In this document: piece by piece, positions 2,158-50,591 of the stretch | How positions within the stretch are numbered: the stretch's first letter is position 1 | Layout of the letters: the number at the start of each line of letters is the position of its first letter | Assembly: GCA_022821965.1 (NCBI GenBank) | Contig: JAJECN010000059.1 | Span: 1 to 64,000 of the forward strand | Source of the DNA: Candidatus Poribacteria bacterium | GTDB lineage: Bacteria; Poribacteria; WGA-4E; WGA-3G | Length of the DNA stretch: 64,000 nucleotides | Direction of reading: 5' to 3' | The notes under the pieces: model-generated | Seen by the model: only the letters and a program-made list of their open reading frames with translations | Database searches by the model: none | Told to the model about the DNA's origin: nothing | Position numbers and translations under genes: made by a program

Positions 2158-3543
2158 TTAGATTTCAACCCGCACAAACGCGAGATACGCACCCGCCAAC
2201 AAAACCACGACAAACAACGTCAATAGCAGCAACTCCATCGCAGCGGTGTTGAAATCTTTACCGATGTTGCGCGTGTCTTCAAATTTAGGGACCGCTTCTG
2301 GACTGACAGGTTTCTGTGACATTCCCTCGCGAACGCCCATGATATGGAGACTCTCCGGATCGCCTCTCTCCATATCGACGATGAATTCTCGGTATTCACG
2401 GGCGTAACGCTGAACATTTTCTATAAATTGCTGGTGTCGATCAAGACCTGTTCCAGCGAACGCCTCAAGGAGGTGTTGGAGGAATGCCGCGGGTGAGATA
2501 CGGGTGATCGCACGCGCACGTTGAACTTGGGTAATCTTAAAGGTTAAGTATTCTCCATTCAAGCGTTCTTCGTTTACTGCCATTTTGGTGTGCCACTCAC
2601 CTCTTGTTCTTAGCATTTTTTCGTCATTTGACTGGTACCAAGCGTATCGCCAAGTTCTCCGAAATTTGTGATAACTTTGGCCGTATCGGTCAAAATATTC
2701 ATAGCGTGCCATAGATGATGAAAAGCCGCTCGCAAGTGAGGCAAGCGTGCTGGGCATAAAAACGACAAAAGTGACCCACGTCAACAGAAGTATCACAAGA
2801 CTCACGGCACTCCGTTGCACACGCGCCGAGACTAACAGCCCTAACGCCAGAAACAGACACGTATACAAAAATGCAATAAAGAGAATAATGCATAAACGTC
2901 CCCACGCTTGGGCGTTCAGGTGAACTGCACTTGAGGTGGAAAGTATCAAAAGGTTCACCAACATAGCCAGCATAAACGGAATGGTCGTACTTATCAACGC
3001 CCCCAGAAACTTACCGATCAGCACCGTATGTCGTGGGATTGCATTTGCCAACGTCAATCGGAGCGTGCCGTGCTCGCATTCGCCAGAGATAGCATCAAAC
3101 GTAAAAATAAGTGCGATAAGACTCAAGATGTAACCGATGATGAATGTCCAATCGATGTGGGAAACGTCGGGCCCAAGATTCATCATATTTATATTGGCAT
3201 CTGGATATGCCAGTCTCCAGAATCTCCTTCGATCATAAGAGCTGCCCACCCTATCGGGTAAAGAGGTTTCCCCGCCGTCTGCGCAGAAGTGGAGGGGTGA
3301 CGGTTTTTTGTAAAATGTTCCGGGTCCCTGTCGTGCGAGTTCGTATAGACTGTCGTCGGCGATAGCAGTTAATCGGTTCATGGATTCAGTGACAGCGTTG
3401 TGATATTGCTGGACCCGTTTCGAATGTTCTCGGGTATGTCTCACGGCGTTGGTTACCATCAGTGCGAGCAGCAACACGGTCGTCAGTGCAAATCGGAGGC
3501 TATTCAGGTTGTTATAGAGTTCACGTTTCGTGATATGCCACAT
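2158..3543 (-). CDS. ABC-2-type transporter permease (paralog A, left cluster)
   Basis: 461 aa integral membrane protein of the ABC-2/NosY-like type. There is an N-terminal membrane segment (~17-35), a periplasmic loop of ~95 residues, four segments between ~130 and 270, a second large loop (~270-435) and a C-terminal segment ending FVRVEI. After TM2 comes the family signature GECEHGTLRLTLAN, where NosY-like permeases carry E-x-GTLxLLLS. Such permeases need a separate ATPase, and none is encoded here. It is closely related to the protein at 7542-8972 (both begin WHITKREL) and is paired with paralog B upstream. The start follows AAGGAAAATT within the dispersed leader element. Confidence 0.8.
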   Translation of the reverse strand: MWHITKRELYNNLNSLRFALTTVLLLALMVTNAVRHTREHSKRVQQYHNAVTESMNRLTAIADDSLYELARQGPGTFYKKPSPLHFCADGGETSLPDRVGSSYDRRRFWRLAYPDANINMMNLGPDVSHIDWTFIIGYILSLIALIFTFDAISGECEHGTLRLTLANAIPRHTVLIGKFLGALISTTIPFMLAMLVNLLILSTSSAVHLNAQAWGRLCIILFIAFLYTCLFLALGLLVSARVQRSAVSLVILLLTWVTFVVFMPSTLASLASGFSSSMARYEYFDRYGQSYHKFRRTWRYAWYQSNDEKMLRTRGEWHTKMAVNEERLNGEYLTFKITQVQRARAITRISPAAFLQHLLEAFAGTGLDRHQQFIENVQRYAREYREFIVDMERGDPESLHIMGVREGMSQKPVSPEAVPKFEDTRNIGKDFNTAAMELLLLTLFVVVLLAGAYLAFVRVEI

Positions 3544-3573
3544 TTTTAATTTTCCTTGCGGTTTGGTCAGGAT
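3541..3573 (-). repeat. Dispersed leader element supplying the SD and start codon
   Basis: On the minus strand the sequence ACCGCAAGGAAAATTAAAA runs directly into ATG. The same ~25-bp end precedes starts at 8972, 23461, 28073 and 49767, and the upstream parts of those leaders are also partly alike. Here the element contains a short inverted repeat around CTACCC/GGGTAG (3609-3623). Confidence 0.55.
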
Positions 3574-3656
3574 GTCTGTAGTGGAAACGATTTCTCCGTA
3601 GATCCAGCCTACCCGTTGGGTAGACTTACGCGCTCTGGTTATATTTTTCGGTTCTC

Positions 3657-3785
3657 GGTTGTCAGTTATCAGTTTTCAGTGAAGAGGTTTTCCCGTAACA
3701 ATCAACCCTCTCCTGAAGTAATCTAAGGGGCAATTGTTGCAGGATACCCTCTTAACTGACAACCGACAACTGATAACTGACAACT
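3657..3785. repeat. Heptamer-iterated inverted-repeat element
   Basis: The left end (3657-3680) is built of ~7-bp units such as TCAGTTA and TCAGTTT. The right end (3753-3785) carries the complementary units AACTGAC, AACCGAC, AACTGAT and AACTGAC. About 70 bp of unique sequence lies between. Similar elements occur at 38219-38396, 38654-38750 and 53104-53231, with half-elements near 9222 and 23266. Short tandem heptamer repeats of this style are known in cyanobacteria; here they bound small foldable units between genes. Confidence 0.6.
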
Positions 3786-5290: not shown

Positions 5291-7336
5291 CTAATCTGAT
5301 AGGAGTGCTTCAATCATCCAAATTAAAGGTTGACCATTTATAAGATATAGACCGCCACTGTATTGCCAATTGCCTACTTTATCAATCAAGATGAAATATG
5401 GGATTCCTATAATCTGATAAGCCTTTCTCACTTCCCCGTGGGGATCAAGCAAGATCGGCCAGGGCACATGATGTCCGTCTATAAACTGCCGTAATTGGTA
5501 CGTAGTTTTACCATCATTAATACCCCAGATGACGACATCATCGTTTTTGCTGAAGTGCTCGTAGACGAGTTTAACTTCCGGAATGCGCCTATTGTGCTCC
5601 CTCGTTCTCGAATTCCCAATCTCAAGCAAAACAATTTTGCCAGACATCGCCGACAGCGTATAGGTCTCACCTTGCAAAGTTTGTAGACGGAAATTCGTCG
5701 CTTTGTGATTTAATCTGTTCGTGATAAGTCTCTGCCGGATTTTTTCGCGATCGGCCTCTTCTCGAATCCGGTATTCAACTTCCATGCTTTTGAGGAATGC
5801 CTCAAATGTATCGGTAGACCTTCGTTCGATTTGATTATAGATGCGTTTCAAACCTGTTCGGGCTTCGGCGTGAGGTGTCGGTGCAAAGTGTGCATCGGCA
5901 TAATAATATCTTGCTTTTTCCCACTCTCCTATTCCTTCTGCAGACCGTCCCAACATGTAGAAGTAATTTGTGGTGTCTTCGTTGAACCTTTCCGATAGTG
6001 ATTCCAAAAAATCCGGTGTGTTTGCGAGAAGTCCATCATAAGACTCTTTCCATCGTTCTTGCCGGAGATAGATTTTAGCACGTAAGCGCGATATCTTTTT
6101 CCACGCTTCCTCTACAGATCCGTTGTTGTGTTCGATAAGCCATTTCTGTTCCTCTTCCTCCCCTAATCTGATTTCAGCACGTTCTAAAATTTCTAACGCT
6201 TTGTCTAATCCGTTGTTAAACTTGAGCCGCCATTCAACCGCTGCAGTATAAGCCCAACTAAACCACTGCTGTGTCTCCTCGCAAAAGACAAGATGAGCTT
6301 TCAAGTATCGGTCAATCAGTTCATCAAGATAGTCATCGCTTGCCAGAGATCGATCCTCTTCTGCCAACAGCCACAGCATGTGTTCGTATGCCCCAAAATA
6401 CCAAGAATTTCCTGGAACATCTGAGGCGGTACACTCATCAATGAGGCGCTGATAATAGTGCCACTTTTGAGATGCATCTTCGCTCCGCTCAGCTAACCCT
6501 AATAATGCGGCCTGATAACCTCCTGTTCCGGGATATTGTAGCATCTTATCAAACAAACTGTTTGGGACATTCTTTGTGCGGCCAGGAAGGTTCATATATC
6601 CCCAGTAGGCAGTGCTCAATAATTCTGGGGTTTCTGGGTGTATCCGCATCAGAGATTCGATTTCAGAGGGAATCGTTTTTTTTGCGTCCGCCTCTGAAAA
6701 CATTTTGGCGATGAGTCTCCATCGAGCATCACAAACCTCTAAATCCGTTATCTGTACACTGCCAAGAAATTCCTGAATTAAGAGCTCCTGATCTGCGTGT
6801 AAACGCTTTCGCGCCCGATGGAGCCGACTCCGAATCGTGTTGACGGATACCCCCAAGGATTTGCCGACCTCCTTTGCCCTCATTTCACTGAGATAGTAGA
6901 GCATCATCACCGTGCGTTCACTCTCCGGTAGTTTTGCCAGAAGCTTTTCGGCGATTTCATAACGACGTTCAGTCGCTTCTACCTCTTGCTGCTCCGATAC
7001 ATAACGCTCATAAGTTAAGTTATCTATTGCTCTCACAGGTGTGTCTTCCAGCGATTGCATCGCGGGTTTTTGCTTTCGCATCCAATCAATGCAAAGTCGA
7101 TTTGCGACGGCATAGAGCCATCCAGAAAATTGGTTGGGATCCTTGAGTGTTGAGAGTTTTTTATACGCTTGAAGGAAGATGTCTTGGGTAATTTCTTCAG
7201 CATGGTGAAAATCACCGATCTTCTGCCACACGCATGCATGAATACTCTTTTCATACTTTCGGACCAAAATGTTGAACGCCTCATCGTCGCCTGATAAAAT
7301 TCTATGAATCAGTTGAACGTCGTCTTCCGTCTCCAT
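5291..7336 (-). CDS. ECF sigma factor fused to TPR-like region and Cys-less thioredoxin domain (left copy)
   Basis: 681 aa from the ATG at 7336, chosen over the upstream in-frame start because AGGAGG lies just before it and the paralog aligns from the same point. Residues ~15-90 are sigma70 region 2 (AEEITQDIFLQAY, FSGWLYAVANRLCIDWMRK). Residues ~130-190 are region 4 (LPESERTVMMLYY, then GVSVNTIRSRLHRARKRL). The middle ~200-520 is the same TPR-like helical module as in the stand-alone TlpA-like genes. Residues ~540-681 keep the thioredoxin fold (FRLQTLQGETYTLS, INDGKTTYQL, IPYFILIDK), but the active-site CxxC is replaced by NSRTREH. ECF factors redirect RNA polymerase; TPR tails are known in ECF42-like groups, but a thioredoxin tail is unusual. 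It heads an operon with permease B. Confidence 0.8.
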   Translation of the reverse strand: METEDDVQLIHRILSGDDEAFNILVRKYEKSIHACVWQKIGDFHHAEEITQDIFLQAYKKLSTLKDPNQFSGWLYAVANRLCIDWMRKQKPAMQSLEDTPVRAIDNLTYERYVSEQQEVEATERRYEIAEKLLAKLPESERTVMMLYYLSEMRAKEVGKSLGVSVNTIRSRLHRARKRLHADQELLIQEFLGSVQITDLEVCDARWRLIAKMFSEADAKKTIPSEIESLMRIHPETPELLSTAYWGYMNLPGRTKNVPNSLFDKMLQYPGTGGYQAALLGLAERSEDASQKWHYYQRLIDECTASDVPGNSWYFGAYEHMLWLLAEEDRSLASDDYLDELIDRYLKAHLVFCEETQQWFSWAYTAAVEWRLKFNNGLDKALEILERAEIRLGEEEEQKWLIEHNNGSVEEAWKKISRLRAKIYLRQERWKESYDGLLANTPDFLESLSERFNEDTTNYFYMLGRSAEGIGEWEKARYYYADAHFAPTPHAEARTGLKRIYNQIERRSTDTFEAFLKSMEVEYRIREEADREKIRQRLITNRLNHKATNFRLQTLQGETYTLSAMSGKIVLLEIGNSRTREHNRRIPEVKLVYEHFSKNDDVVIWGINDGKTTYQLRQFIDGHHVPWPILLDPHGEVRKAYQIIGIPYFILIDKVGNWQYSGGLYLINGQPLIWMIEALLSD

Positions 7337-7354
7337 AAGGTTTCCTCCTAACAC

Positions 7355-7541: not shown

Positions 7542-8972
7542 CTAAACATCAACACGGATGAAGGAAAGAAACGCACCAGCGAATAACACTACAAAAAACA
7601 ACAATAATAGCAGAATGTCCGTGGCTGCAGCATTGTATGCCCCACCGAAACTGATACGGTCCTCAAATTTAGGAATTGATTCAAAGCGCACCGGCTTTTG
7701 TGATGTCCCTTCCTTGGGTCCGAGTGCATGTGGACTTTCTGGGTCGACACGATCGGTTTCAGTGAGAAACGTTCTGAATTCACCGGCGTATCGGCGCACA
7801 TGCTTTAAAAATTGGACGTGCCGTGTGAAACCGGTGCCAGCAAGGGATTCAATGGCATAGCGGACGCTTGATGCAGGCGATATACGGGTTATGGATCTCG
7901 AAAATTGAACCTGAGCGATCTGAGCATTTAAGTGTTCTTCATTCAATTTCTCGTTATCTCTTGCATCTTCGGTGAGGTATTTCGACCACAATAATGTTTC
8001 CTCTGTTGCTGGAATCTCTCGCGAGGGTGTTTTACGCCAAAGTTCGTCGTACTGCTCAAAAAAACGAGAGGCGAGAGATTGTTGACGGGCGGTAAGTTCG
8101 TTATGAGTCATTGTCGGCTGTAAACCACTGGTAAGCGCGCCGATTGTGGCGGGTAATAGGACGACCCAAACAACCCAAATCAGTAGGAGAATCGTGAGGC
8201 TGGTTGACGAACTGCTCACACGAGAGGATATGAGCAGCCCCAACCCAAGAAAGATTGACACGTAAACAAAAGCGATGAAGACAATGACTCCCAATCGTCC
8301 CCACTCGCTCGCTGCCAATGGAACACTTCCTGAAGTGTAAAGCAGAAAAAGGTTAATTAATGCGGCAATTAAAAAAGGGATACTGATAGTTATCAATGCT
8401 GCAAGAAATTTGCTTACCAGTACAGTGCCACGTGAAATGCTGTTGGATAGCGTCAGTCGTAAAGTGCCGCGTTCTTGCTCTGAGGAGATTGCGTCGAAAG
8501 TGAACAGGATCGCAATTAAACTCAACGCTATGGAGATTATATCTCCCCAATCAACGTTCGTGTAATCCGGCATAAGGTCCCATAGACTTGGGTTGGATTG
8601 TGGGTATTTCATTCGCCATGTCGTGCTGATTGAAAAACGACTTGATGTCATGAACAGACCTTCGCCAACGCCGCCAGCGGATTCGGGTATAAACGTTTCA
8701 CCGCCATTCGCACAAAAGGAGAGTGGACGAGGTTTTTTGTAGAGAGGACCGGGTCCTTCTGTGAGCAGATTGTACAGACTTTCTGCATTGGATCTCATTT
8801 TATCTAAGGATGCTGAGACCTTTTTTTGATATGCCGTCGATTGCGCTGTGTGTTCGCCAAGATATCCGATTGCGTTGACGATCATTAGTCCGATAAGCAA
8901 TACCGTTGTGAAGGCAAACCGCAGACTGTTCAGATGGTCATAGAGTTCGCGTTTTGTGATATGCCAAACCAT
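7542..8972 (-). CDS. ABC-2-type transporter permease (paralog A, right cluster)
   Basis: 476 aa from the ATG at 8972 (MVWHITKREL). The open frame continues 82 codons further upstream, but only because a 117-bp leader is tandemly duplicated in frame. The 8972 start aligns with its paralog at 3543 and has AAGGAAAATT in front. Topology matches paralog A: TM1 at ~18-38, periplasmic loop, four segments, long loop, C-terminal segment ending FIRVDV. The signature after TM2 is SSEQERGTLRLTLSNSISRG. It is an ABC-2 exporter or assembly permease lacking a cognate ATPase in the window. It is the last gene of the right cluster, downstream of permease B (9256-10770). Confidence 0.8.
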   Translation of the reverse strand: MVWHITKRELYDHLNSLRFAFTTVLLIGLMIVNAIGYLGEHTAQSTAYQKKVSASLDKMRSNAESLYNLLTEGPGPLYKKPRPLSFCANGGETFIPESAGGVGEGLFMTSSRFSISTTWRMKYPQSNPSLWDLMPDYTNVDWGDIISIALSLIAILFTFDAISSEQERGTLRLTLSNSISRGTVLVSKFLAALITISIPFLIAALINLFLLYTSGSVPLAASEWGRLGVIVFIAFVYVSIFLGLGLLISSRVSSSSTSLTILLLIWVVWVVLLPATIGALTSGLQPTMTHNELTARQQSLASRFFEQYDELWRKTPSREIPATEETLLWSKYLTEDARDNEKLNEEHLNAQIAQVQFSRSITRISPASSVRYAIESLAGTGFTRHVQFLKHVRRYAGEFRTFLTETDRVDPESPHALGPKEGTSQKPVRFESIPKFEDRISFGGAYNAAATDILLLLLFFVVLFAGAFLSFIRVDV

Positions 8973-9204
8973 TTTTTTAATTTTCCTTGCGGTTCGGTCA
9001 GCTGAGACTTGGCAAAGACGTTCCTTTGCGCAACCCGCCCCGGCCCGTTGGTTGGGGCTGCAGGTTTTGACTAAGTTTTCCAAAACCATTTTTTTAATTT
9101 TCCTTGAGGTTCGGTCAGCTGAGGCTTGGCAAGGACGTTCCCTTCCGTAACCCGTCCCGGCCCGTTGATTGGGACTACAAGTTTTGACTAAGTTTTCCAA
9201 AACC
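8971..9204 (-). repeat. 117-bp tandem direct repeat carrying SD and start codon
   Basis: Two head-to-tail copies (8971-9087 and 9088-9204) differ at a few positions. Each ends, on the minus strand, in CAAGGAAAATTAAAAAA followed by ATG. Because 117 is a multiple of three, the copies are in frame with the permease. If read, they would encode a 39-residue peptide repeated twice (starting VLENLVKTCSPNQRAG). This is more likely a duplicated 5' leader than real protein sequence. Confidence 0.75.
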
Positions 9205-9255
9205 CTCTTAACTCTCACTGTGAGGCAAGTTGATAACTGATTGCTGAAAACTATT

Positions 9256-10781: not shown

Positions 10782-12485
10782 CTAATCTGAGAGAAGAGTT
10801 TCAACCATCCAAATTAAGGGCTGACCGTTTACCAGATGCGAACCTAAAAAACTGTATTGCCAATTCCCAGTTTTATCAATCACGATAAAAAAGGGTATCC
10901 CTTTAATCTGATAAGCCTTCCTCAACTGTTGACTCCGATCAAGTAGAACGGGCCATGGCTGCCGATGTTCATCTAAAGACTTCCGCACCTGTTCAGGGGT
11001 TTCGCCGTCATTAATTCCCCAGATGACAACATCATCGTTTTCGCTGAAGTGCTTGTAGACAGTTTCGACCTCGGGGATTGATATGTTGCACGGACCACAC
11101 CACGAAGCCCCGACATCGAGTAAAACGACCTTCCCAGCCATCGCTGATAGCGAGTAGGTCTCTCCTTCCAGCGTTTCTAACCGAAAATCCGTTGCTTTTT
11201 TATTCAGTTTGTTCGTGATAAATTCCTGACGGAATTTCTCGAGATCCGCCGCTTCTCGGATCCGGTATTCGGCTTCGGTGTCTTTAAGGAATGCCTCAAA
11301 CGTATCGGCGGTCTTCCCTCGTGCAGTTTGATGGTAGATACGTTCCAATCCTGCCTGAGCCTCAGCGTGAGACTTCGGGGCAAAGTGTGCATCGGCATAA
11401 TAACGCCTTGCTGTTTCCCATTCACCAATTCTTTCTGCCGACTGGCCCAACATCCAGAAATAATTGATGGCACGCTCGTTGAATCTCACCCACAACGATT
11501 CCGAAAAATCGGGTGCGTTTGCGAGAAGTCCGTCATGTGCTTCTCGCCATCGTTCCTGCTGGAGATAGATTTCAGCACGCAAGCGCGAGATGTCTTTCTG
11601 CTTTTCTTCTATAGACCCTCCCCGGCGTTTAATCCACGTTTGTTCCTCTTCTTCGCCTAATCTAATCTTAGCACTCGCCAAATCTTCCAACGCTTTATCT
11701 AATCGGATGTTAAGCTTTAGTCGCCATTTGCTTACTATCGTATAAGCCCAACCGGACCACAGCTGTGTCTTCTGACAATAGAAAAGATGTGCTTTCAAGT
11801 ATTGGTCGATAAGTTCATCAGCGTAATCATTGCTTGCCAGAGAGCGGTCCTCTTCGATTAACCACAGCATCTCCTCGTATGCCAACAAATACCAGGATAA
11901 TTCTGGCACATCCGAGGCGGTAAACTCATCAATGACGCGTTGGTAATAGTGCCACTTTTGAGGTGCCTCTTCGCTTCGTTCCGCTAATCCTAAGAGGGCA
12001 AGCAGATGAAGTTCGGTATTGGGGTATTGCAGCATCTTATCAAACAAACTGCTTGGGACATTCTTGACACCGCCTGGAAGATGTCTATATCCCCAGTGGG
12101 CAGCGTTTAATATTTCCGGGGTTTCTGGGTGTGCTTGCAGCAGTGCTTTGATTTCAGAAACAATCCTTTTTTTGGCATCCGCCTCTGAAAACATTTTGGC
12201 TATCAATCTCCATCGAGCATCATAAGCCTCAAGGTCCACCGGATCGGATTTTAGGGCGCGCTCACTGATCTCCAAAGCCTTATCAAATTCACCCGACTTA
12301 TGAAGCGTTTTGATCTGCGTCGCCAAATCCTGTTGATGCTTATTGGTGGTTTCCGCGAATGCGGTTCCGAAGGAAGTGGATGAGGTTGTGTCTTGTTTGG
12401 TGTGTTGCGTGAAGAACAGGGCACCTAAAACAAGCATGGAGCAGACAGAAAGCGCACCCAGTATTGTTCGATTTGAAAGTTTCAT
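10782..12485 (-). CDS. Exported TPR/TlpA-like thioredoxin protein (WCGPC)
   Basis: 567 aa from ATG 12485, preceded by AAGAGGAATTT; an in-frame ATG 36 nt upstream has no SD. Residues ~8-28 (ILGALSVCSMLVLGALFF) are a signal anchor or signal peptide, so the protein is membrane-attached or periplasmic. The middle is the shared TPR-like module (SGEFDKALEISERALKSDP). The C-terminal ~150 residues are a TlpA-type thioredoxin domain with the classical WCGPC (Cys463, Cys466) and IKGIPFFIVIDK containing the cis-Pro. It should act as a periplasmic disulfide reductase or isomerase. It sits between the sigma fusion and the permeases, linking redox work in the envelope with the membrane proteins of the operon. 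Confidence 0.78.
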   Translation of the reverse strand: MKLSNRTILGALSVCSMLVLGALFFTQHTKQDTTSSTSFGTAFAETTNKHQQDLATQIKTLHKSGEFDKALEISERALKSDPVDLEAYDARWRLIAKMFSEADAKKRIVSEIKALLQAHPETPEILNAAHWGYRHLPGGVKNVPSSLFDKMLQYPNTELHLLALLGLAERSEEAPQKWHYYQRVIDEFTASDVPELSWYLLAYEEMLWLIEEDRSLASNDYADELIDQYLKAHLFYCQKTQLWSGWAYTIVSKWRLKLNIRLDKALEDLASAKIRLGEEEEQTWIKRRGGSIEEKQKDISRLRAEIYLQQERWREAHDGLLANAPDFSESLWVRFNERAINYFWMLGQSAERIGEWETARRYYADAHFAPKSHAEAQAGLERIYHQTARGKTADTFEAFLKDTEAEYRIREAADLEKFRQEFITNKLNKKATDFRLETLEGETYSLSAMAGKVVLLDVGASWCGPCNISIPEVETVYKHFSENDDVVIWGINDGETPEQVRKSLDEHRQPWPVLLDRSQQLRKAYQIKGIPFFIVIDKTGNWQYSFLGSHLVNGQPLIWMVETLLSD

Positions 12486-12517
12486 AAATTCCTCTTTGTT
12501 ACGATAACATCGCAGTA

Positions 12518-14587
12518 TCACACATCTGATAGGAGTGCTTCAATCATCCAAATTAAGGGCTGACCGTTTACCAGATGCGGACCTTCAAAGCTGTATTGCC
12601 AATTTCCCACTCTATTGATCAAGATGAAAGAGGGTCTTGATTCAATCTGATAAGCTTTGCTCACCTCCCGATGCGGGTCAAGCAGAACGGGCCAGGGTGG
12701 CTGATATTCATCTAAAAACTCCCGCACTTTGTGAGGGGCTTCACCGTCATTGATTCCCCAGACGACGACATCATTGACTTTACTGAAGTGCTTGTAGGCG
12801 AGTTTGACTTCTGGAGTCGCCATCATGGGTTGCGAAACCCCAACCGTAAGCAAAACAACCTTTCCAGACATCGCCGATAGAGTGTAGGTCTCTCCTTCTA
12901 AAGTCTCTAAACGAAAATCCGTCGCTTTCTCATTGAACCTGTTCGTGATAAGTTGCTGGCGGATTTTTTCGAGGTCAGCAGCTTCTCGGATCCGGTATTC
13001 GGCTTCGGTATCTTTGAGGAATGCATTAAATGCATCGGTGGTTTTCCGTCGTGCGATTTGATGATGAACGCGTTCTAATCCGGCGCGACCTTCCGCTTGA
13101 TGGATAGGTGCAGCGTGTGCATCGACATGGGAACGTCTGACCTTTTCCGAGTGAAGAGTAGGCGCGAAGTGTACGTTGGCATAGTAGCGTCTGGCTTCTT
13201 CCCATGCTTCCATTCCCTCCGCCGCCCGTCCCAGTATATAGAAGTAATTGAGGGTACGCTCGTTGAACCTTGTCCAGAGGGATCCCAGATAATCCGGTGC
13301 ATTTGTGCTAAGCGCGTCATACGCTTCTTCCCACCGTTCCTGCTGGAGGTAGATTTCAGCGCGTAAATGCGATATCCTCTTGTGCTCTTTTTCTACGGAT
13401 CCTTTGTTGTTTTCTACGAGCCACTTCTGTTCCTCTGCCTCACCCAATCTGATTTCAGCACGTTCTAAAATTTCATAAGCTTTGTCTAATCGGTTGTTAA
13501 ACTTCAGCCGCCATTCAACGGTTGCAGTATAAGCCCAGCCAAAATACTGCTGTGTATCTTCACAGTAAGCAAGATGTGCTTTTAAGAGTCCATCAGTAAG
13601 TTCATCAAGGTAGTCATCGCTTGCCAGAGAGCGGTCCACCTCGGCTAACCTCAGCATTTCTTCATAAGCTAACATATACCAGGATAATACTGGGGCATCT
13701 GAGGCGGTGAACTCGTCAGTGACGCGTTGGTAATAGTGCCACTTTTGAGAGGCATCTTCGCTCCGTTCAGCTAACCCGAACAGTGCAGCTTGATAAATTT
13801 CGGTATTGGGATATTGCAATATCTTATCAAACAAACGCAGTGGGACATTCTTTGCGAGACCCGGAAGACACCTATATCCCCAATAGGCAGTTTCTAACAC
13901 TTCCAGATTTTCTGGATGTGCCCTCAGTAGCGTTTCGATTTCAGGATAAATCCTTTTTCTCGCCTCTTCTTCTGGGAGCGTCTCGGCTATCAGTTTCCAT
14001 TGAGAAAGGTAAGTTTCTAAGTCCATAGTCAAAAGCTCCTGATCTACTTGTAAACGTTTTCGTGCCCGGTGGAGCCGACTCACAATCGTGTTCACCGGTA
14101 CATTCAAAAGTTCACCTATTTCCTTTGTTGGCATTTCACCCAGATAGTAAAGTGTCATGACCTCGCGTTCACTCTCTGGTAGTTTTGACAGAAGTTCTTC
14201 AGCGATTTCATAACGACGCTCGATTGCTTCTGTCTCGCGCTGCTCCGATACATAACGCTCATACGTTAAGTTATCTATTGCTTTTATAGACGGGGCATCC
14301 AGCGGTTGCATCGTAGGTCTTTGCTTTCGCATCCAAGCAATGCAAAGCCGATTCGCAATGACATAGAGCCATCCAGCAAATTGACTGGGGTCCTTGAGCG
14401 TCGAAAGTTTTTCATAAGCTTGGAGGAAAGTGTCTTGCGTAATCTCTTCAGCGTAGTGAAAATCACCTATCTTCCGCCACACGAGGGTGTGAACACTTTT
14501 TTGATACTTTTGGACTAAAATGTTAAACGCCTCATCGTTGCCTGATAAAATTTTTTGAATTAACTGAACATCGTTTTCCTTTTCCAC
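12518..14587 (-). CDS. ECF sigma factor fused to TPR-like region and Cys-less thioredoxin domain (right copy)
   Basis: 689 aa from a GTG at 14587 (VEKENDVQLI), chosen because AGGAGAG lies just upstream and it aligns with METEDDVQLI of the left copy. Sigma region 2 spans ~15-90 (AEEITQDTFLQAY, AGWLYVIANRLCIAWMRK). Region 4 spans ~130-190 (LPESEREVMTLYYLGEMPTK, NVPVNTIVSRLHRARKRL). The TPR-like module follows, with a local insertion duplicating YANVHFAPT/HVDAHAAPI-type sequence near residue 500. The C-terminal thioredoxin fold has GVSQPMMATPEV where CxxC should be, so it is catalytically dead. It heads the right operon, 32 nt upstream of the exported TlpA-like gene. Confidence 0.8.
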   Translation of the reverse strand: MEKENDVQLIQKILSGNDEAFNILVQKYQKSVHTLVWRKIGDFHYAEEITQDTFLQAYEKLSTLKDPSQFAGWLYVIANRLCIAWMRKQRPTMQPLDAPSIKAIDNLTYERYVSEQRETEAIERRYEIAEELLSKLPESEREVMTLYYLGEMPTKEIGELLNVPVNTIVSRLHRARKRLQVDQELLTMDLETYLSQWKLIAETLPEEEARKRIYPEIETLLRAHPENLEVLETAYWGYRCLPGLAKNVPLRLFDKILQYPNTEIYQAALFGLAERSEDASQKWHYYQRVTDEFTASDAPVLSWYMLAYEEMLRLAEVDRSLASDDYLDELTDGLLKAHLAYCEDTQQYFGWAYTATVEWRLKFNNRLDKAYEILERAEIRLGEAEEQKWLVENNKGSVEKEHKRISHLRAEIYLQQERWEEAYDALSTNAPDYLGSLWTRFNERTLNYFYILGRAAEGMEAWEEARRYYANVHFAPTLHSEKVRRSHVDAHAAPIHQAEGRAGLERVHHQIARRKTTDAFNAFLKDTEAEYRIREAADLEKIRQQLITNRFNEKATDFRLETLEGETYTLSAMSGKVVLLTVGVSQPMMATPEVKLAYKHFSKVNDVVVWGINDGEAPHKVREFLDEYQPPWPVLLDPHREVSKAYQIESRPSFILINRVGNWQYSFEGPHLVNGQPLIWMIEALLSDV

Positions 14588-14770
14588 GAGGCTCTCTCCT
14601 AATAAACAGATTGGGTATGTTCGCATTCGCCAAAAGGCTTAATCAAATGCTGAGTCTTGTAAAATTAAGCAATACAATGCAGTTCATGCCCGCTACTGTT
14701 TTAAAGACGCGATTTTGGGCAGGAAAAATTGCACAATTTCAAAAAAAGTGAAAAAAGGTGTTTTGTGTTT
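14588..14770 (-). promoter_or_regulatory. Conserved leader upstream of the right sigma-fusion gene
   Basis: It matches the leader at 7355-7520 block by block: TTCACTTTTTTTGAAATT, GTGCAATTTTTCC, GCCCAAAATCGCGTCTTTAAAACAG, TTGCTTAATTTTAC, AGCATTTGATTAAGCC and CCCAATCTG. The match is best in the stretch around CGTCTTTAA, a plausible ECF-type -10. Between 14770 and 14938 I see no gene or further structure. Confidence 0.5.
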
Positions 14771-18836: not shown

Positions 18837-19451
18837 ATGGTTACAAATATACGAAGATTTTTCTTGCTGACTGTTGCACTGTTATTTTGCGTCCTTGGAT
18901 GTGCCCGCGATCGGGCGAATGTCCTAATGCCCGACCACGTTTCACCACCGATGGAAGTTCACGAACCTGTTGATGTTAAGGCTTCTTTTGAACATGACCT
19001 TCTGCCTATCCTCACGGCGAGATGTGCACTCTCCGGATGCCATGTTGCTGATGGACCACACGGTTTAGATTTCAGAACCTACGAATCTTTTGTTGCCGGG
19101 GGAGAGCACGGTCCGGCGTACATCCCGGGGAATGCTGAAGAGAGTGAGATTATTGAAGAAATTGTTGAAGGCAAGATGCCTCCTCCGCCTCGTGATCCAC
19201 TAACCGATACCGAGATTCAACTTTTCGTTGATTGGATTAATCAACAGGAAGCACAGGATGCTGTCGTTCAACACGAACATGACGAGCATGCTGTTGAAGC
19301 GGGCATTCATGAAGACATGGATGCCGATCACGACGAGGACATGGATGCCGACCATGACGATGATGTTCATGATGACGACGAAGATGAGCATGAAGATATG
19401 GATGACGACGGTGCTCATGATGACGGTGATGACCATGACGACGATAACTAA
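18837..19451 (+). CDS. Cytochrome-c-like lipoprotein with Asp/His-rich tail
   Basis: 204 aa. The signal peptide ends LGC (Cys22), a lipobox. Residues ~50-135 resemble the planctomycete-type cytochrome domain: FEHDLLPILTARC, then CALSGCH (Cys63, Cys68, His69, a CX4CH instead of CX2CH haem motif), LDFRTYESF, a Met in GKMPPPP (Met114) as possible axial ligand, and LFVDWI. Such domains bind haem c covalently in the periplasm; the longer spacing makes haem attachment uncertain. From ~140 to the end the protein is almost only Asp, Glu, His, Met and Gly, with a duplicated DEDMDADHD unit, which suggests metal binding. A hairpin terminator follows. Confidence 0.65.
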   Translation: MVTNIRRFFLLTVALLFCVLGCARDRANVLMPDHVSPPMEVHEPVDVKASFEHDLLPILTARCALSGCHVADGPHGLDFRTYESFVAGGEHGPAYIPGNAEESEIIEEIVEGKMPPPPRDPLTDTEIQLFVDWINQQEAQDAVVQHEHDEHAVEAGIHEDMDADHDEDMDADHDDDVHDDDEDEHEDMDDDGAHDDGDDHDDDN

Positions 19452-23265: not shown

Positions 23266-23460
23266 CGATCAGCAGTCAGTAATCAGCAATCAGCGGTCAG
23301 ATCAGAAGAATAGTTTTTGGTTAACCGCAAGGGACATTAGAAAAGCGTTAGGAGATATGTAATAAAGTGAGTGTAGCCCGTAATGAAGTGGAGGGCACCT
23401 CTGGAGAAAGGCACTTCAAATGCCAATCACCTGTCAGTTAACCGCAAGGAAAAATAAAAA
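23266..23460 (+). repeat. Heptamer half-element plus dispersed leader element
   Basis: 23266-23298 is a run of ~7-bp units (CAGCAGT, CAGTAAT, CAGCAAT, CAGCGGT). Then TTAACCGCAAGGGA (near 23322) and TTAACCGCAAGGAAAAATAAAAA (ending at the start codon 23461) bracket ~120 bp that contains GTAGCCCGTAATGAAGTGGAGGGC. The same core is found before 28073 (GTAGCCCGAAACGAAGTGGAGGGC). No gene is seen here. Confidence 0.6.
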
Positions 23461-24225
23461 ATGAAATGGTCATTGAATACTTACCAAACTTGCCAAGAGT
23501 GGGAACTCGGACGCATACTTGACACTGCTGAGGCGACTGGCTATCACGGTGTCGAGTTGTTGATGGACTACAAGCAGAAACACGGCTTTGAGTGGGATAC
23601 GCCAAGAGAGGCTTGGGACGGATTAAAAGCACAGGTTGATGCGAGTGGTGTTGTTGTCTCCTCGCTCACCAGTTGCCAAAATTTCCACTCCGAGAACGCT
23701 GCTGACCGTGAGGAGACCGTCCGACGTGTTACCCGCGTGATTGATATGGCGGAATTTATGGACTGCGACCATGTCCGTGTGCTCGGTGACCGGTATACCG
23801 AGGAGAATCGAGATGCTATTGTCGGTTATGTCACAGATGGGCTGAAGGCTCTCGGCACTTATGCTGGTGAGAAAGACATTACTGTTTCTATTGAGATGCA
23901 CGGTTCCTTCACAGATCCCGATTCGGCGATGCAAGTCATTGAAGGTGTGAACCTTCCAAATGTCGGTTTCGTTTTCAATTCACAATTCGTCGGTTGCGAT
24001 GCTGGCAGTATTGAACCGCTCTTTTCACGTGTGGCTTCACATATCACGGCAGTGCATACACACCGGGTAGAGGAGCCCGAAACGTTTGACCTTTACCGAC
24101 AGATGTTCCAATGGCTTGATCGCATCGGTTTTTCGGGTTATATATCCAACGAGTGTGCTTATACGGGACCTGATCCAGAGAAGGTACTTGCACTCTACGT
24201 TGGGCTTTTCAAGGCATTTGTTTAG
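23461..24225 (+). CDS. Sugar phosphate isomerase/epimerase-like TIM barrel (AP-endonuclease-2 fold)
   Basis: 254 aa. The sequence from WELGRILDTAEATGYHGVELLMD onward shows the xylose-isomerase-like TIM-barrel pattern: VVSSLTSCQNFHS, then VRVLGDR, VSIEMHG carrying a metal-ligand Glu, and HITAVHTH, with a final SGYISNECAYTG. Members isomerise or epimerise sugars or cleave inositol-derived compounds using a divalent metal; the substrate is not predictable. It starts directly after the dispersed leader element and runs into a propeller gene 2 bp downstream, so they form an operon. Confidence 0.75.
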   Translation: MKWSLNTYQTCQEWELGRILDTAEATGYHGVELLMDYKQKHGFEWDTPREAWDGLKAQVDASGVVVSSLTSCQNFHSENAADREETVRRVTRVIDMAEFMDCDHVRVLGDRYTEENRDAIVGYVTDGLKALGTYAGEKDITVSIEMHGSFTDPDSAMQVIEGVNLPNVGFVFNSQFVGCDAGSIEPLFSRVASHITAVHTHRVEEPETFDLYRQMFQWLDRIGFSGYISNECAYTGPDPEKVLALYVGLFKAFV

Positions 24226-27587: not shown

Positions 27588-28073
27588 CTACAGTTCATGG
27601 ATTGTTGCTTCAAGCGTTTCTAAGTCTACAACAGCAACCGTTGCTCTTCCAGTTGTCCATCCACCTGTTTCCCCAGGGTTAATCAATAGCGATTGACCTT
27701 TTTGGATGTCTGTCTGATGGGTGTGTCCATAAACAATGATGTCGTAATCGCCGCTTTTAGCAATGGGAATGGCGAATTCAGGGTAGTGCATTACGGCGAT
27801 GTTCTTCTCCGCGAGCGACACGCTGGCGAGGTTAGGGTGCACCTCACCATCGATGGCTTCAAACCGTTTCGCAACAACGATGCGTTCGCCGTCATTGTTG
27901 CCAAATACGCCTACGACGCGGCAGTTTAAGTCCCCTAATGGGTCAATGGCAAACGGCGCGATAAAATCGCCAGCATGGACGACGAGATCGACACCGATTT
28001 CATTAAAAAGCGCGACAGCGCGTTTGACGTTTGGGATGTTGTCGTGGCTGTCGGACATAACACCAAGTTTCAT
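27588..28073 (-). CDS. YfcE/MJ0936-type metallophosphoesterase
   Basis: 161 aa, full length for the family. It carries the dinuclear-metal motifs in order: MSDSHDN (~6-12), HAGDF, GNNDGE, MHYPE and VYGHTHQ. Enzymes of this group are cytosolic phosphodiesterases acting on small phosphodiester substrates in vitro. The start is fixed by the dispersed leader element (AAGGAAATTTAAAAAA before ATG). It leads a likely operon with the small unknown protein and the HigA-like antitoxin. Confidence 0.85.
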   Translation of the reverse strand: MKLGVMSDSHDNIPNVKRAVALFNEIGVDLVVHAGDFIAPFAIDPLGDLNCRVVGVFGNNDGERIVVAKRFEAIDGEVHPNLASVSLAEKNIAVMHYPEFAIPIAKSGDYDIIVYGHTHQTDIQKGQSLLINPGETGGWTTGRATVAVVDLETLEATIHEL

Positions 28074-28200
28074 TTTTTTAAATTTCCTTGCGGTTAAACG
28101 ACGTGGTTTGTGCTTTGACGCTCTTCGCTCAAGAACCGCCCTCCACTTCGTTTCGGGCTACGGTTTCGTTGCTATTTTATCTGTAGAAGTCACGAGTACG
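28071..28200 (-). repeat. Dispersed leader element upstream of the phosphoesterase gene
   Basis: On the minus strand it contains GTAGCCCGAAACGAAGTGGAGGGC, an inner repeat around TTGAGCGAAGAGCG, and ends TTTAACCGCAAGGAAATTTAAAAAA directly at the ATG. This is the best match to the element at 23320-23460. Confidence 0.6.
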
Positions 28201-47694: not shown

Positions 47695-48678
47695 ATGGAG
47701 ATGCGGACGTGTGGAAAATCTGGAATTGAAATCTCACCGATGGGCATTGGCTGTTGGTCTTATGGTGGTGGTGATTATTGGGGACCGCAAGCACAATCGG
47801 ATGTTACCGCTGTTGCTAACGCTGCATTGGATGCCGGCATCAACTTCTTCGATACAGCGGAGGGATATAACGACGGACGAAGCGAGGAGGCACTTGCCGT
47901 CGCACTAAAAGGCAGGCGACACGAAACAGTCATCGGCACGAAGGTAAGCCGACCGGATCCGGCTACGATCCGTGAACGTTGCGAAGCGAGTCTCCAACGC
48001 TTGCAAACGGATTATGTTGACATCTATATGATTCACTGGCCCGACGATGAGATTGCTATTGAAGAGAGTATGGCTGAACTGACGCGTCTACAGGAAGATG
48101 GACTCATCCGTGCGATCGGTGTAAGCAACTTCGGGGTGGAACAACTTACAGCAGCACTTGGGACAGGGGCATCTATTGCTGTGAATCAGGTTTGCTATAA
48201 CCTCTTGTCGCGAGCAATAGAGCCTGAGTTGCTTCCACTGTGTCGGGAGCATAATGTCGGTATCTTAGGGTATATGCCGCTGTTGCAGGGAATCTTGACT
48301 GGACAGTATAAAAGCGCAGAGGAGATACCGCCGGTGCATTCCCGATTTCGCCATTTTCGGGATGACCGAGCACAGGCTTCACACGGTGAAGAGGGTGCGG
48401 AGGCGGAGATGTTTGAGACCTTGGAGGCTATCCGGCACATCGCGGAGGCTGAACAGGTCCCGATGGCACGACTGGCGATTGCGTGGGCGATGGCGAGACC
48501 GGGGATTGCGTGCATGCTTGTTGGTACTCGGAATATAAATGAGCTGCAGGAAAACCTGAACGTTATCGAATACACGCCGTCTGCTGATGTTATTGATAGA
48601 CTTGACACGGTGACTGCCCCACTTTTAGAAAAAATGGGAGCGAATCCGGATTATTTCACCGGAGCGCGCATTCATTAG
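47695..48678 (+). CDS. Aldo/keto reductase
   Basis: 327 aa. It shows the AKR features: ISPMGIGCWSYGGG at strand 1, FFDTAEGYNDGRSEE with catalytic Asp and Tyr, VIGTKVS with Lys, YMIHWPDD with His, IGVSNFGVEQL, and a C-terminal cofactor site MLVGTRNINELQENL. It is predicted to reduce carbonyls with NADPH. GGAGG lies 8 bases before the ATG. It is followed after a short gap by a PhyH gene. Confidence 0.88.
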   Translation: MEMRTCGKSGIEISPMGIGCWSYGGGDYWGPQAQSDVTAVANAALDAGINFFDTAEGYNDGRSEEALAVALKGRRHETVIGTKVSRPDPATIRERCEASLQRLQTDYVDIYMIHWPDDEIAIEESMAELTRLQEDGLIRAIGVSNFGVEQLTAALGTGASIAVNQVCYNLLSRAIEPELLPLCREHNVGILGYMPLLQGILTGQYKSAEEIPPVHSRFRHFRDDRAQASHGEEGAEAEMFETLEAIRHIAEAEQVPMARLAIAWAMARPGIACMLVGTRNINELQENLNVIEYTPSADVIDRLDTVTAPLLEKMGANPDYFTGARIH

Positions 48679-48729: not shown

Positions 48730-49620
48730 ATGGCAGAACAGTTAGGCATTAGATTCAATAAAGACTTCGGGAATCCGTTGGCAACGGCAGCTGCCGATAT
48801 TACGCAGACGAATGCCGATGGTGAACCTATTGTCCCTTTAACGCAGGAACAAAAGTATCTTTTCGACAAAAACGGATGGTTCTTGGTGCCGGGTGTGCTG
48901 ACGGAATCGGAGGTTGAAGAGATGCGCGATTTCTGTTACCGTTTAAAAAACGACCCTGAAACGATTCCGCAACACCACCGCTCCACTTACGGTGGACCTC
49001 TGGAGAAGTTGACGGATCACCCGGTGGTGGTAGCGTTCGGCAACGAATTTCTCGCGACACCGTATCTTGCCTCAGACACCTGCTACGGTTTCCGTATGGA
49101 GATGAGTTTTATGGCGTTGCGTTCGGCAACGGACGATCCTCCCTTCGCATTTAGTCCGCATAACGGTAACGGTATGTTTCGGATGCCGGGTGATTGCCAC
49201 CAATACCAATGTTTACCCGGACAAGCGTATAGTGGATTGACGCGCGTTGTCTGGGAGCTCAACCCTGTGGAGAAGGACGACGGCGGCACGATGTTCATTA
49301 CGGGCAGCCACAAGGCGGCTTATACTGCACCAGAGGATGTCCACACACAAGACTGGGAATTTTGGGACACCTATTCTTGTCCTGCTGGGTCTGTTATTAT
49401 CTTTACGGAGGCAATTACGCATAGTGGACAAGCGTGGCAAAACCCTGATACTGATCGGGTCGCTGTTTTTAACGCGTATAACTCAGTAGATAAGCGGTGG
49501 ACCCTGTCGAGACCGCCACAAGCGTTATTTGAGGAGATGCCTCCGAAACGCCAGACTCTCTTTCGTGATGCTTATGTGAAAGGCAATGTAACAGGGACAG
49601 CGTTTGATATGGCATTATGA
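48730..49620 (+). CDS. PhyH-like protein with HxG instead of HxD
   Basis: 296 aa from ATG 48730 (MAEQLGIRF), which has AAAAGG in front; an upstream GTG is less likely. The PhyH fold is indicated by FLVPGVLTESEVEEMRDF, LNPVEKDDGGTMFITGSHKA and EAITHSGQAW with distal His and Arg. The proximal metal motif reads SPHNGNG, i.e. His144-x-Gly146, where dioxygenases have Asp. Loss of this carboxylate is the hallmark of Fe/2-oxoglutarate halogenases, which bind a halide in the gap, but also occurs in inactive homologs. It sits beside an aldo/keto reductase and another PhyH gene. Confidence 0.7.
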   Translation: MAEQLGIRFNKDFGNPLATAAADITQTNADGEPIVPLTQEQKYLFDKNGWFLVPGVLTESEVEEMRDFCYRLKNDPETIPQHHRSTYGGPLEKLTDHPVVVAFGNEFLATPYLASDTCYGFRMEMSFMALRSATDDPPFAFSPHNGNGMFRMPGDCHQYQCLPGQAYSGLTRVVWELNPVEKDDGGTMFITGSHKAAYTAPEDVHTQDWEFWDTYSCPAGSVIIFTEAITHSGQAWQNPDTDRVAVFNAYNSVDKRWTLSRPPQALFEEMPPKRQTLFRDAYVKGNVTGTAFDMAL

Positions 49621-49627
49621 ATAGCCG

Positions 49628-49766
49628 TGAGCTTAACCGAGCCGCCAGGAAAAGCAGAAATTCGTTAAAATAGCGCGTAGCTTGGAGCGAAGTGGAAAGC
49701 GGGTCTACGGGGTGAAACGTAAAAACTGCCAACCCACCTAACCGAACCGCAAGGAAATCTAAAAAA
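49628..49766 (+). repeat. Dispersed leader element before the third PhyH gene
   Basis: It begins with TTAACCGAGCCGCCAGGAAAAGC, has a middle block CGTAGCTTGGAGCGAAGTGGAAAGCGGG (compare GTAGCCCGTAATGAAGTGG at 23375), and ends TAACCGAACCGCAAGGAAATC-TAAAAAA directly before ATG 49767. Confidence 0.55.
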
Positions 49767-50591
49767 ATGACACCGAAACAACGTTATCTTTTTGATGTAA
49801 CAGGATATCTCCATTTAGAAAATGTCATCACTGGCGATGCATTGGCGGAAGCTGCTGAAGCGGTCGATAGATATATAACGACCCCGCCTGATGAGTTGCC
49901 ACCGGGATTTGAACAAAAAGGACTCCATCAGCACGGGTTCGCTTTCGATAAATCGCTTGAATGTTTAACGATGCACACCGCGCTATGGCCAATTATCAAA
50001 GAGTTGACGGACAATCAGCCGCGGTTTGCCAGAGGTTCGTTGAAGCATGATAAACACGATTTGTGGGAGGCGGGTGAGCGCGCAAACGTGAACCCCGGCG
50101 GGTTGCACTGCGCTCGTGATGATTACGGATGGTATAGCACACGCTACGAGGCTGACAACGAACGTATCTACTGCGATAACTTTGTCTGTTTCCCCTATTT
50201 CACGGATGTCTATCCGGGCGATGGGGGACTCATTGTAATCCCCAACTCGCATAAGAGTGAGTTTAAGCGACCGGAGCAGCTGCTGACGCTTGACGAAGAA
50301 GATGGTATTGATCCGCTTGACGATCCTGTTTTCGTTAATATTACACCGAAGGCGGGCGATATTGTCATTATTTCGGAATTGCTGACGCACGGTGTACTAC
50401 GCTGGAAACCAAAGGATCGGGATCGGCGGTTTCTCGTCCTGAGATATGCGCCACAATACGCTGGGGCGCATAACTTCCCGCAACCTATTCTGGATCGGTT
50501 GTCTCCAGAGACGTTGGAATTGGTGGAATCTGCTGCGTATGGGCATATTAAGGAGATTGCGAAGCAGGATAAGGTTACGTTGACGGTGTAA
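49767..50591 (+). CDS. PhyH-like protein with HxA instead of HxD
   Basis: 274 aa, start fixed by the leader element SD (AAGGAAA). PhyH landmarks are VTGYLHLENVITGDAL, VYPGDGGLIVIPNSHKS and SELLTHGVLRW with RRFLVLRYAP. The first metal motif is GGLHCARDD, His114-x-Ala116 in place of His-x-Asp; the Asp pair two residues later might substitute. Halogenases such as SyrB2 have HxA, but many marine PhyH paralogs with altered motifs have no known activity. The substrate is unknown. Confidence 0.7.
   Translation: MTPKQRYLFDVTGYLHLENVITGDALAEAAEAVDRYITTPPDELPPGFEQKGLHQHGFAFDKSLECLTMHTALWPIIKELTDNQPRFARGSLKHDKHDLWEAGERANVNPGGLHCARDDYGWYSTRYEADNERIYCDNFVCFPYFTDVYPGDGGLIVIPNSHKSEFKRPEQLLTLDEEDGIDPLDDPVFVNITPKAGDIVIISELLTHGVLRWKPKDRDRRFLVLRYAPQYAGAHNFPQPILDRLSPETLELVESAAYGHIKEIAKQDKVTLTV

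Follow-up and report, generated by a model that had tools for sequence, protein, structure and literature searches.

The stretch of DNA analyzed here (the window; 64,000 nt of one contig from a Candidatus Poribacteria bacterium, genome G000) carries a gene for an ABC-2 permease, permease A, whose start codon is preceded by two 117-bp units in tandem (Table 1). Tandem Repeats Finder (TRF) identified a repeat of period 117 with 2.0 copies at positions 8966 to 9204 (score, 401), and the two units match at 106 of 117 bases (91%), with a microhomology, GGTTT, at their junction. The tandem duplication described in the initial annotation is thus real. Each unit has AAGGAAAATTAAAAAAAT at its end, followed by G, which provides a Shine-Dalgarno (SD)-like AAGGA, an A/T spacer, and an ATG. 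Three such starts had been proposed, the outer two adding 39 or 78 residues to the protein, and two of them exist, at 8970 to 8972 (+0 residues) and 9087 to 9089 (+39 residues). There is no third ATG 5' of the upstream unit, where the sequence reads GTTAAGAGGGTT; an extension of 78 residues has no ATG, and the longest open reading frame (558 amino acids [aa]) starts with GTG at 9216 to 9218, 82 residues upstream of the supported start. A covariance model of the unit, described below, finds six clear copies at five gene starts in the window as a whole, along with two weak remnants. The ABC-2 permease family to which permease A belongs is itself large, with 60 matches in G000 and 14 to 60 in each of 30 genomes of the genus.

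Table 1. Permease A, its tandem units, and other copies of the element in the window
Feature	Position	Strand	Basis or remark
Permease A CDS, supported start ATG 8970-8972, 476 aa	7542-8972	-	Pfam ABC2_membrane_2, DUF3526
Downstream 117-bp unit (element copy and SD box, then G of permease A ATG)	8971-9087	-	Covariance-model match 8970-9067, 78.2 bits
AAGGAAAATTAAAAAA box (SD-like AAGGA and A/T spacer)	8973-8988	-	
Hairpin (inverted repeat) of downstream copy, GCCC..GGGC, inner CC/GG	9037-9058	-	Model alignment
Upstream 117-bp unit (second tandem copy; ATG 9087-9089 in frame with permease A)	9088-9204	-	Model match 9087-9184, 76.8 bits
Element copy adjoining start of permease paralog ORF 2158-3543	3539-3635	-	Covariance model
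Weak remnant upstream of the 23367-23464 copy	23304-23347		E 0.06
TTAACCGC-subtype copy adjoining ORF 23461-24225 (AP_endonuc_2/xylose isomerase-like)	23367-23464	+	
TTTAACCGC-subtype copy adjoining ORF 27588-28073 (Metallophos_2)	28071-28167	-	
Weak remnant upstream of the 49671-49769 copy	49613-49664		E 0.05
Element copy adjoining ORF 49767-50591 (PhyH)	49671-49769	+	

One reading of the upstream unit, raised in the initial annotation, is that it forms a nascent coding extension of the permease N terminus. Nothing closes the frame that leads from the upstream unit into permease A, an SD and an ATG stand at its head, and the frame is open in genome G043 too. Comparison of permease A upstream regions across 14 of 18 loci (L252 and L257 to L259 were left out) argues against this reading. 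The element is present in only 4 of the 14 rows (two copies in G000, one each in G001 and G005, and a shortened copy in G043) and absent in 10, and protein conservation starts from the downstream ATG, with MVWHI, MIWHI, or MWHI. Where the element is present, the frame is closed in two of four rows, after 1 codon in G001 and after 13 codons in G005. Family-wide, 5 of 19 hairpin-bearing copies keep the start codon's frame open for 96 nt, compared to 2 of 19 and 7 of 19 for the other two frames. Of the 23 array spacings longer than 80 nt, 7 are divisible by three and 16 are not; therefore, the divisibility by three pointed out in the initial annotation is incidental. An extension conserved among orthologs, which would have pointed to coding sequence, was looked for at permease A and not found, and the alternative that the unit is a leader agrees with these data. 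We therefore reject a coding extension, which we regard as scarcely credible, and judging from the sequence comparison the upstream ATG at 9087 to 9089 was most likely left behind as the array grew. Automated gene prediction may carry protein models into leaders of this kind; the longest open reading frame of permease A is an example.

The unit is not confined to this locus. With a single unit as the BLAST query, at least 48 matches were obtained in the same genome (40 of 156 candidates scored). The core pattern, CCGAACCGCAAGGAAAATTAAAAA, occurs at 132 sites in the genome with up to 3 mismatches, compared to none for a reversed control pattern, and a covariance model built from 64 copies has at least 148 matches at E values of ≤0.01 (150 candidates scored). 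With up to 2 mismatches, the core was found in 23 of 24 genomes of the genus, including G000, and in 0 of 16 genomes of other genera. The covariance model has matches in all 28 genus genomes searched and, outside the genus, in 5 of 30 genomes from the same order, namely, 3 of 15 in one sister genus, 1 of 1 in another sister genus, and 1 of 14 in other families. The core pattern also matched at least 102 stretches of a named genome collection, and among the matches listed 80 of 80 belong to Poribacteria. The element is thus restricted largely to one genus of Poribacteria and is genus-specific. We found no published description of it in the literature searched, which included few subscription papers, and the words "intergenic," "repetitive," and "palindrom" do not occur in the available text of a poribacterial single-cell paper (PMC3909097).

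Such dispersal bears on the simplest account of the permease A pair, that is, a neutral local duplication of the gene's own leader without wider meaning. The adjacency of the two units, their 91% identity, and the microhomology at the junction are as this account would have them, and the permease A array itself may have grown by slippage. As a full explanation it is contradicted by the more than 100 dispersed copies and by other arrays with the same anatomy, and we consider it very improbable. The copy number variation that the initial annotation had suggested looking for does exist, between species across the family and at permease A (2, 1, or 0 copies).

Copies are placed in a distinctive way relative to genes. 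In 1.43 Mb of two genomes, 87 cores (≤6 mismatches) make up 60 sites, and at 49 of these the 3'-most copy lies 8 to 23 nt before the start codon of an open reading frame of at least 60 aa, a criterion satisfied by 14.6% of random positions and 21.9% of all AAGGA sites. One distance is preferred, with 34 of 87 cores located exactly 16 nt before a start; the corresponding share is 0.95% for random positions and 2.4% for AAGGA sites. At 5 of the 11 sites that are not start-adjacent, a start lies no more than 80 nt away, and the remaining 6 have none so near. In another count, 74 of 248 cores are not directly before the start of an open reading frame of at least 60 aa, and many of these, though not all, are upstream members of arrays. 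The element has one orientation relative to the downstream gene and lies mostly between same-strand genes; for start-adjacent copies, 49 of 50 upstream genes share the strand, compared to 915 of 1,176 adjacent open reading frame pairs. The downstream genes are diverse, encoding LpxK, NuoK, thiamine pyrophosphokinase, GFO/IDH/MocA and 2-hydroxyacid dehydrogenases, CHAD and PhyH proteins, a TIM-barrel isomerase, ABC-2 permeases, and a metallophosphoesterase. No 16S rRNA gene, from which an anti-SD sequence could be read, was found in this assembly.

A typical copy consists of a short inverted repeat and a linker ending in CCGAACCGC, followed by AAGGAAAATTAAAA and the start codon. The inverted repeat has an outer arm of 4 bp and an inner arm of 2 bp, and GGATATACGG usually comes next, before the linker. 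The 3' end of the element is usually CCGAACCGC, with TTTAACCGC in a second subtype and TTCCTCCGC as a further variant. Of 27 hairpins defined by a regular expression, 24 are followed by the core and two of the remaining three by a variant core, so hairpin and core form one unit. A possible third subtype has a similar hairpin directly followed by CCAGGAG, an A/T spacer, and the start codon (L216, upstream of nuoK, and the G017 counterpart of position 93702 on contig C59). In L273, L008, L237, and L241, other short palindromic repeats (GGGGTCCCCACCCGTTACTGGGAAGGGG and TTTTTGCTGGGGTGTTTCTTCAG-like) lie within the hairpin region of the element, apparently nested. The element also contains CTTGACC..TTAAAA, which resembles -35 and -10 sequences and might be read as a promoter; its intercistronic position and its spacing to the ATG oppose this reading.

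The inverted repeat shows many compensating changes. In an alignment of 64 copies, 93.2% of the cells of the six pairs are paired, compared to 29 to 42% in slid versions; double changes number 122, compared to 37.6 in shuffles. These copies were selected by hand from 84 references, with broken hairpins and near-duplicates avoided and the two units of the window not included, and the selection biases the pairing percentage upward. In 147 copies fitted to the covariance model, there are 186 double changes, compared to 50.9. Such a covarying hairpin and an SD 5' of start codons, in a single orientation and ahead of diverse genes, would be expected of a cis-regulatory RNA leader (a site for a translational regulator or a riboswitch-like element) recruited by many genes, in which case presence and absence would reflect regulon turnover. 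Several observations weigh against it. The hairpin is weak as RNA, with a mean helix probability of 0.29 that exceeds 0.5 in only 17 of 64 copies. G-U pairs occupy 2 of 384 cells in the 64-copy alignment, and the 147 copies have 24 G-U pairs and 44 other mismatches beside 586 Watson-Crick pairs, a G-U to other-mismatch ratio of 0.55 compared to 0.52 expected from column composition; that is, G-U is tolerated no more than other mismatches are. Hairpin-less forms precede nuoK in G003, G015, and G018. An Rfam scan of 14 loci found no family at its gathering score, and we rejected a known RNA family on this basis; the one weak match, to PhotoRC-I (22.9 bits against a threshold of 45; E value, 0.088), is on the opposite strand. 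This subthreshold match lies at 9127 to 9175 on the plus strand of the upstream unit, antisense to the element. A switch that sequesters the SD was also rejected, as the SD has an unpaired probability of 0.585, compared to 0.626 with shuffled upstream sequence. Overall, we find an RNA leader unlikely, and since G-U pairs are not favored and the RNA hairpin is weak, the inverted repeat appears to be kept at the DNA level.

Comparison of orthologous loci indicates turnover of copies between species. G000 and G017 are collinear, with most aligned blocks 84 to 93% identical, and their orthologous sites differ in presence and copy number, with 1 versus 8 copies at two loci, 2 versus 3 at another, and 2 versus 0 at permease A. 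The arrays of 8 similar leader units in G017 (contig C1, at about 2628180 to 2628971 and 599080 to 599871) have a spacing of 113 to 114 bp, and the G000 ortholog has one unit. Between nuoJ and nuoK, 16 of 30 genomes have the element (including arrays, 5'-shortened forms, and G015, judged by eye, with the core ACTGCAAGG), 7 have TAACTGA-type heptamers, and 7 have other leaders. G007, G016, and G023 are 95 to 96% identical over the nuoK locus, where G007 and G023 have different element subtypes and G016 has another leader. At lpxK, the subtype studied here is present only in G000 and G017 among 28 genomes, and a variant occurs in G007 and G023; because most species have other sequences there, this locus is less useful for tracing insertion. 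Turnover of the element between species is rapid, and the element is most likely mobile.

Two loci suggest where insertion takes place. Upstream of orf467 (24 of 30 loci compared; G005, G010, G014, G020, G045, and one of two G023 loci were left out), G000, G019, and G041 lack the element and read AAGGAATAATTAAAAATTGG, as does G003 with one mismatch. In five species (G001, G008, G009, G042, and G023), the element stands between CA(A/G)GGAAT(A/G)(A/G)TTAA on its left and CAAGGAAT(A/G)ATTAA on its right; AAGGAAT(A/G)ATTAA is kept 3' of the element and a near-copy stands 5' of it. Five more species without the element (G004, G013, G021, G040, and G044) have other SDs. Upstream of orf97, 12 of 29 genomes have the element in one form or another, preceded by a retained CTAAAGGAA or a sequence like it, and G000 has the uninterrupted CTAAAGGAAAATTAAAAGTG; most other genomes have unrelated repeats in the same place, and in this comparison G018 was wrongly anchored. 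The orf97 pattern resembles that of orf467 but is shorter. Exact direct repeats of 14, 14, and 17 bp, counted from AAGG, lie on either side of the copies in L176, L010, and L391, respectively. The apparent target duplication is 13 to 17 bp at the clearest sites and 4 to 6 bp at orf97, and few copies show any.

Family-wide comparisons point in the same direction with modest strength. AAGG(A/T) occurs upstream of 7 of 19 first or single copies, compared to 69 of 720 control windows. For 125 single or first copies, the left flank matches the SD of the same locus with a mean score of 5.74, compared to 5.29 for SDs of other loci (0 of 200 shuffles as high), and for the 100 copies left after orthologs were collapsed and left copies resembling older element ends were removed, the values are 5.36 and 5.12 (2 of 500 shuffles as high). 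Matches of at least 10 occur in 11 of 125 copies, compared to about 3.3% of shuffled pairs, and 4 of the 11 are orthologs of one locus; after ortholog collapse, 3 of 100 copies have such long repeats against 1.6 expected, with as many in 66 of 500 shuffles, which is no significant excess, and two of these three (L030 and L127) may be remnants of another element copy. The distance from AAGG to AAGG is 107 to 120 bp in 6 of 8 cases (the remaining two have 142 and 164 bp). The most frequent array spacings are similar, at 113 to 118 bp (long spacings range from 97 to 144 bp), and arrays therefore look like [box+element]n.

Other loci are less easily read as insertions into an SD. At three empty sites in the G000/G017 comparison (positions 48449, 62343, and 230289), the native SD is different, and there the box apparently arrives with the element. 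Only 10 starts have a AAGGAAAATTAAAA-like box without the element, compared to 29 with it, and since orthologous sites are filled for 3 of the 10, a precise loss could look like an insertion. Given the unrelated SDs and the few element-free AAGGAAAATTAAAA boxes, precise loss, or an SD supplied by the element itself, has to be taken seriously at many loci. We conclude from these alignments that at some loci the element has likely inserted into the SD and duplicated it, with modest support across the family; the AAGGAAAATTAAAAAA box at permease A is a possible insertion-target copy, for which the general support is equally modest.

The explanation that we favor, and regard as reasonably probable, is that the 117-bp unit represents a genus-specific, noncoding, probably nonautonomous mobile repeat of about 95 to 105 bp that accumulates in ribosome-binding sites. 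The element would insert in the native SD region before a start codon and duplicate part of the SD, and an SD would then be left beside the gene, as suggested by the two loci above and the modest family-wide signal. Tandem arrays would be of the form [box+element]n and might change by slippage, unequal recombination, or repeated insertion. The permease A pair would be one such array, with translation from the downstream ATG, and the inverted repeat may act at the DNA level for a putative mobilizing enzyme rather than as an RNA switch. A more specific proposal is that the element targets translation starts, recognizing the SD and A/T spacer and inserting in a single orientation, and that it duplicates about 14 bp and so always returns a working SD to the gene; this is a speculation that we consider doubtful.

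The element has features of miniature inverted-repeat transposable elements (MITEs) in being dispersed, multicopy, noncoding, and short. We found no terminal inverted repeats, as the 3' end, when reverse-complemented, agrees with the 5' side at 5.53 of 9 bases, compared to 5.49 after shuffling, and 0 of 100 copies match at 8 or more of 9. The element is thus MITE-like in habit but without terminal inverted repeats. Under the speculative proposal above, a fixed 3' end, the absence of terminal inverted repeats, 5'-shortened copies, and variable duplications would even fit a SINE-like, target-primed (reverse-transcribed) bacterial element.

In many copies, inspection of the alignment shows GTAG or GTAA at the foot of the inverted repeat, as in GTAG-tagged repetitive extragenic palindromes (REPs), and Y1_Tnp genes are present in 22 of 23 genomes of the genus, so the element might be imagined as a REP mobilized by a RAYT/Y1 transposase. 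Like GTAG REPs (available text of PMC3733652), it is a short palindrome with more than 100 copies and clusters reiterated in tandem. The association with the transposase is missing where we looked; the core lies within about 1.5 kb of Y1_Tnp in 0 of 30 loci (of 90 matches), two Y1_Tnp loci hold only the short string GG(A/G)TATACG, and one of three searched clearly has a different short palindromic repeat beside the gene. The hairpin also does not travel alone, as noted above for its core. As far as the available text of PMC3733652 describes them, most known GTAG families have head-head dimers as their commonest dimer type, with head-tail dimers absent or rare, and show frequent GT pairing, which is not favored here; they also differ from the Poribacteria element in its fixed linker and SD box. 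We rejected a RAYT-mobilized REP, which is quite improbable, on the absence of flanking copies at the 30 fetched loci, and no mobilizing enzyme was found within these Y1_Tnp loci, the only ones examined.

The closest precedent in the literature searched is the family of TAACTGA direct repeats found before start codons in Beggiatoaceae, Cyanobacteria, and Bacteroidetes (MacGregor 2015, PMC4679880, as far as its main text describes them). Those repeats are likewise dispersed, strain-specific in presence, and variable in copy number, and in one genome they directly precede the starts of unrelated genes, mostly with the same orientation. They differ in being simple heptamer arrays, mostly without an SD, whereas the Poribacteria element is a unit of about 100 bp with an inverted repeat and an SD box. 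The string "poribacter" is absent from the main text of that paper. The element sequence contains no tandem TAACTGA heptamers, and the heptamers constitute a separate leader in the same genus. We counted 37 TAACTGA-like heptamer arrays in 1.43 Mb, 14 of them with a start within 30 nt; one, AACTGAC with period 7, lies in the window at 3754 to 3785, and others are located upstream of nuoK (L213, L218, L220, L235, L236, L238, and L240).

Pneumococcal BOX, RUP, and SPRITE repeats (PMC3049150) and ERIC/RU repeats (PMC2759123) are, in the parts of these papers available, also short, dispersed, and nonautonomous and can create open frames at gene ends. Pneumococcal repeats are overrepresented between convergent genes (PMC3049150, available text), in contrast to the Poribacteria element, which adjoins starts in a fixed orientation between same-strand genes. 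The Poribacteria element also lacks terminal inverted repeats. Rickettsia palindromic elements insert inside coding sequences; they share with the Poribacteria element the in-frame insertion of a repeat at genes and differ in that the latter lies before the start codon.

Where the pneumococcal repeats favor gene ends, the Poribacteria element accumulates directly ahead of start codons, the nuoJ-nuoK junction included. Either it is tolerated since an SD is left for the gene, or it serves as a portable ribosome-binding site. The family provides a testable reason why unrelated repeats pile up before start codons in some bacteria, a question left open for the TAACTGA repeats, and the differences in copy number from 1 to 8 constitute a natural experiment on leader length and translation.

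Several other features of the window were observed. Two minus-strand genes at 5291 to 7354 and 12518 to 14626 encode chains of 687 to 702 aa with an N-terminal ECF-type sigma-70 part (regions 2 and 4) and a C-terminal AhpC-TSA/redoxin part, and their neighbor at 10782 to 12521 has the redoxin part and no sigma match. Short tandem repeats at 19314 to 19360 and 48461 to 48512 have periods of 24 and 27, respectively, both multiples of three.
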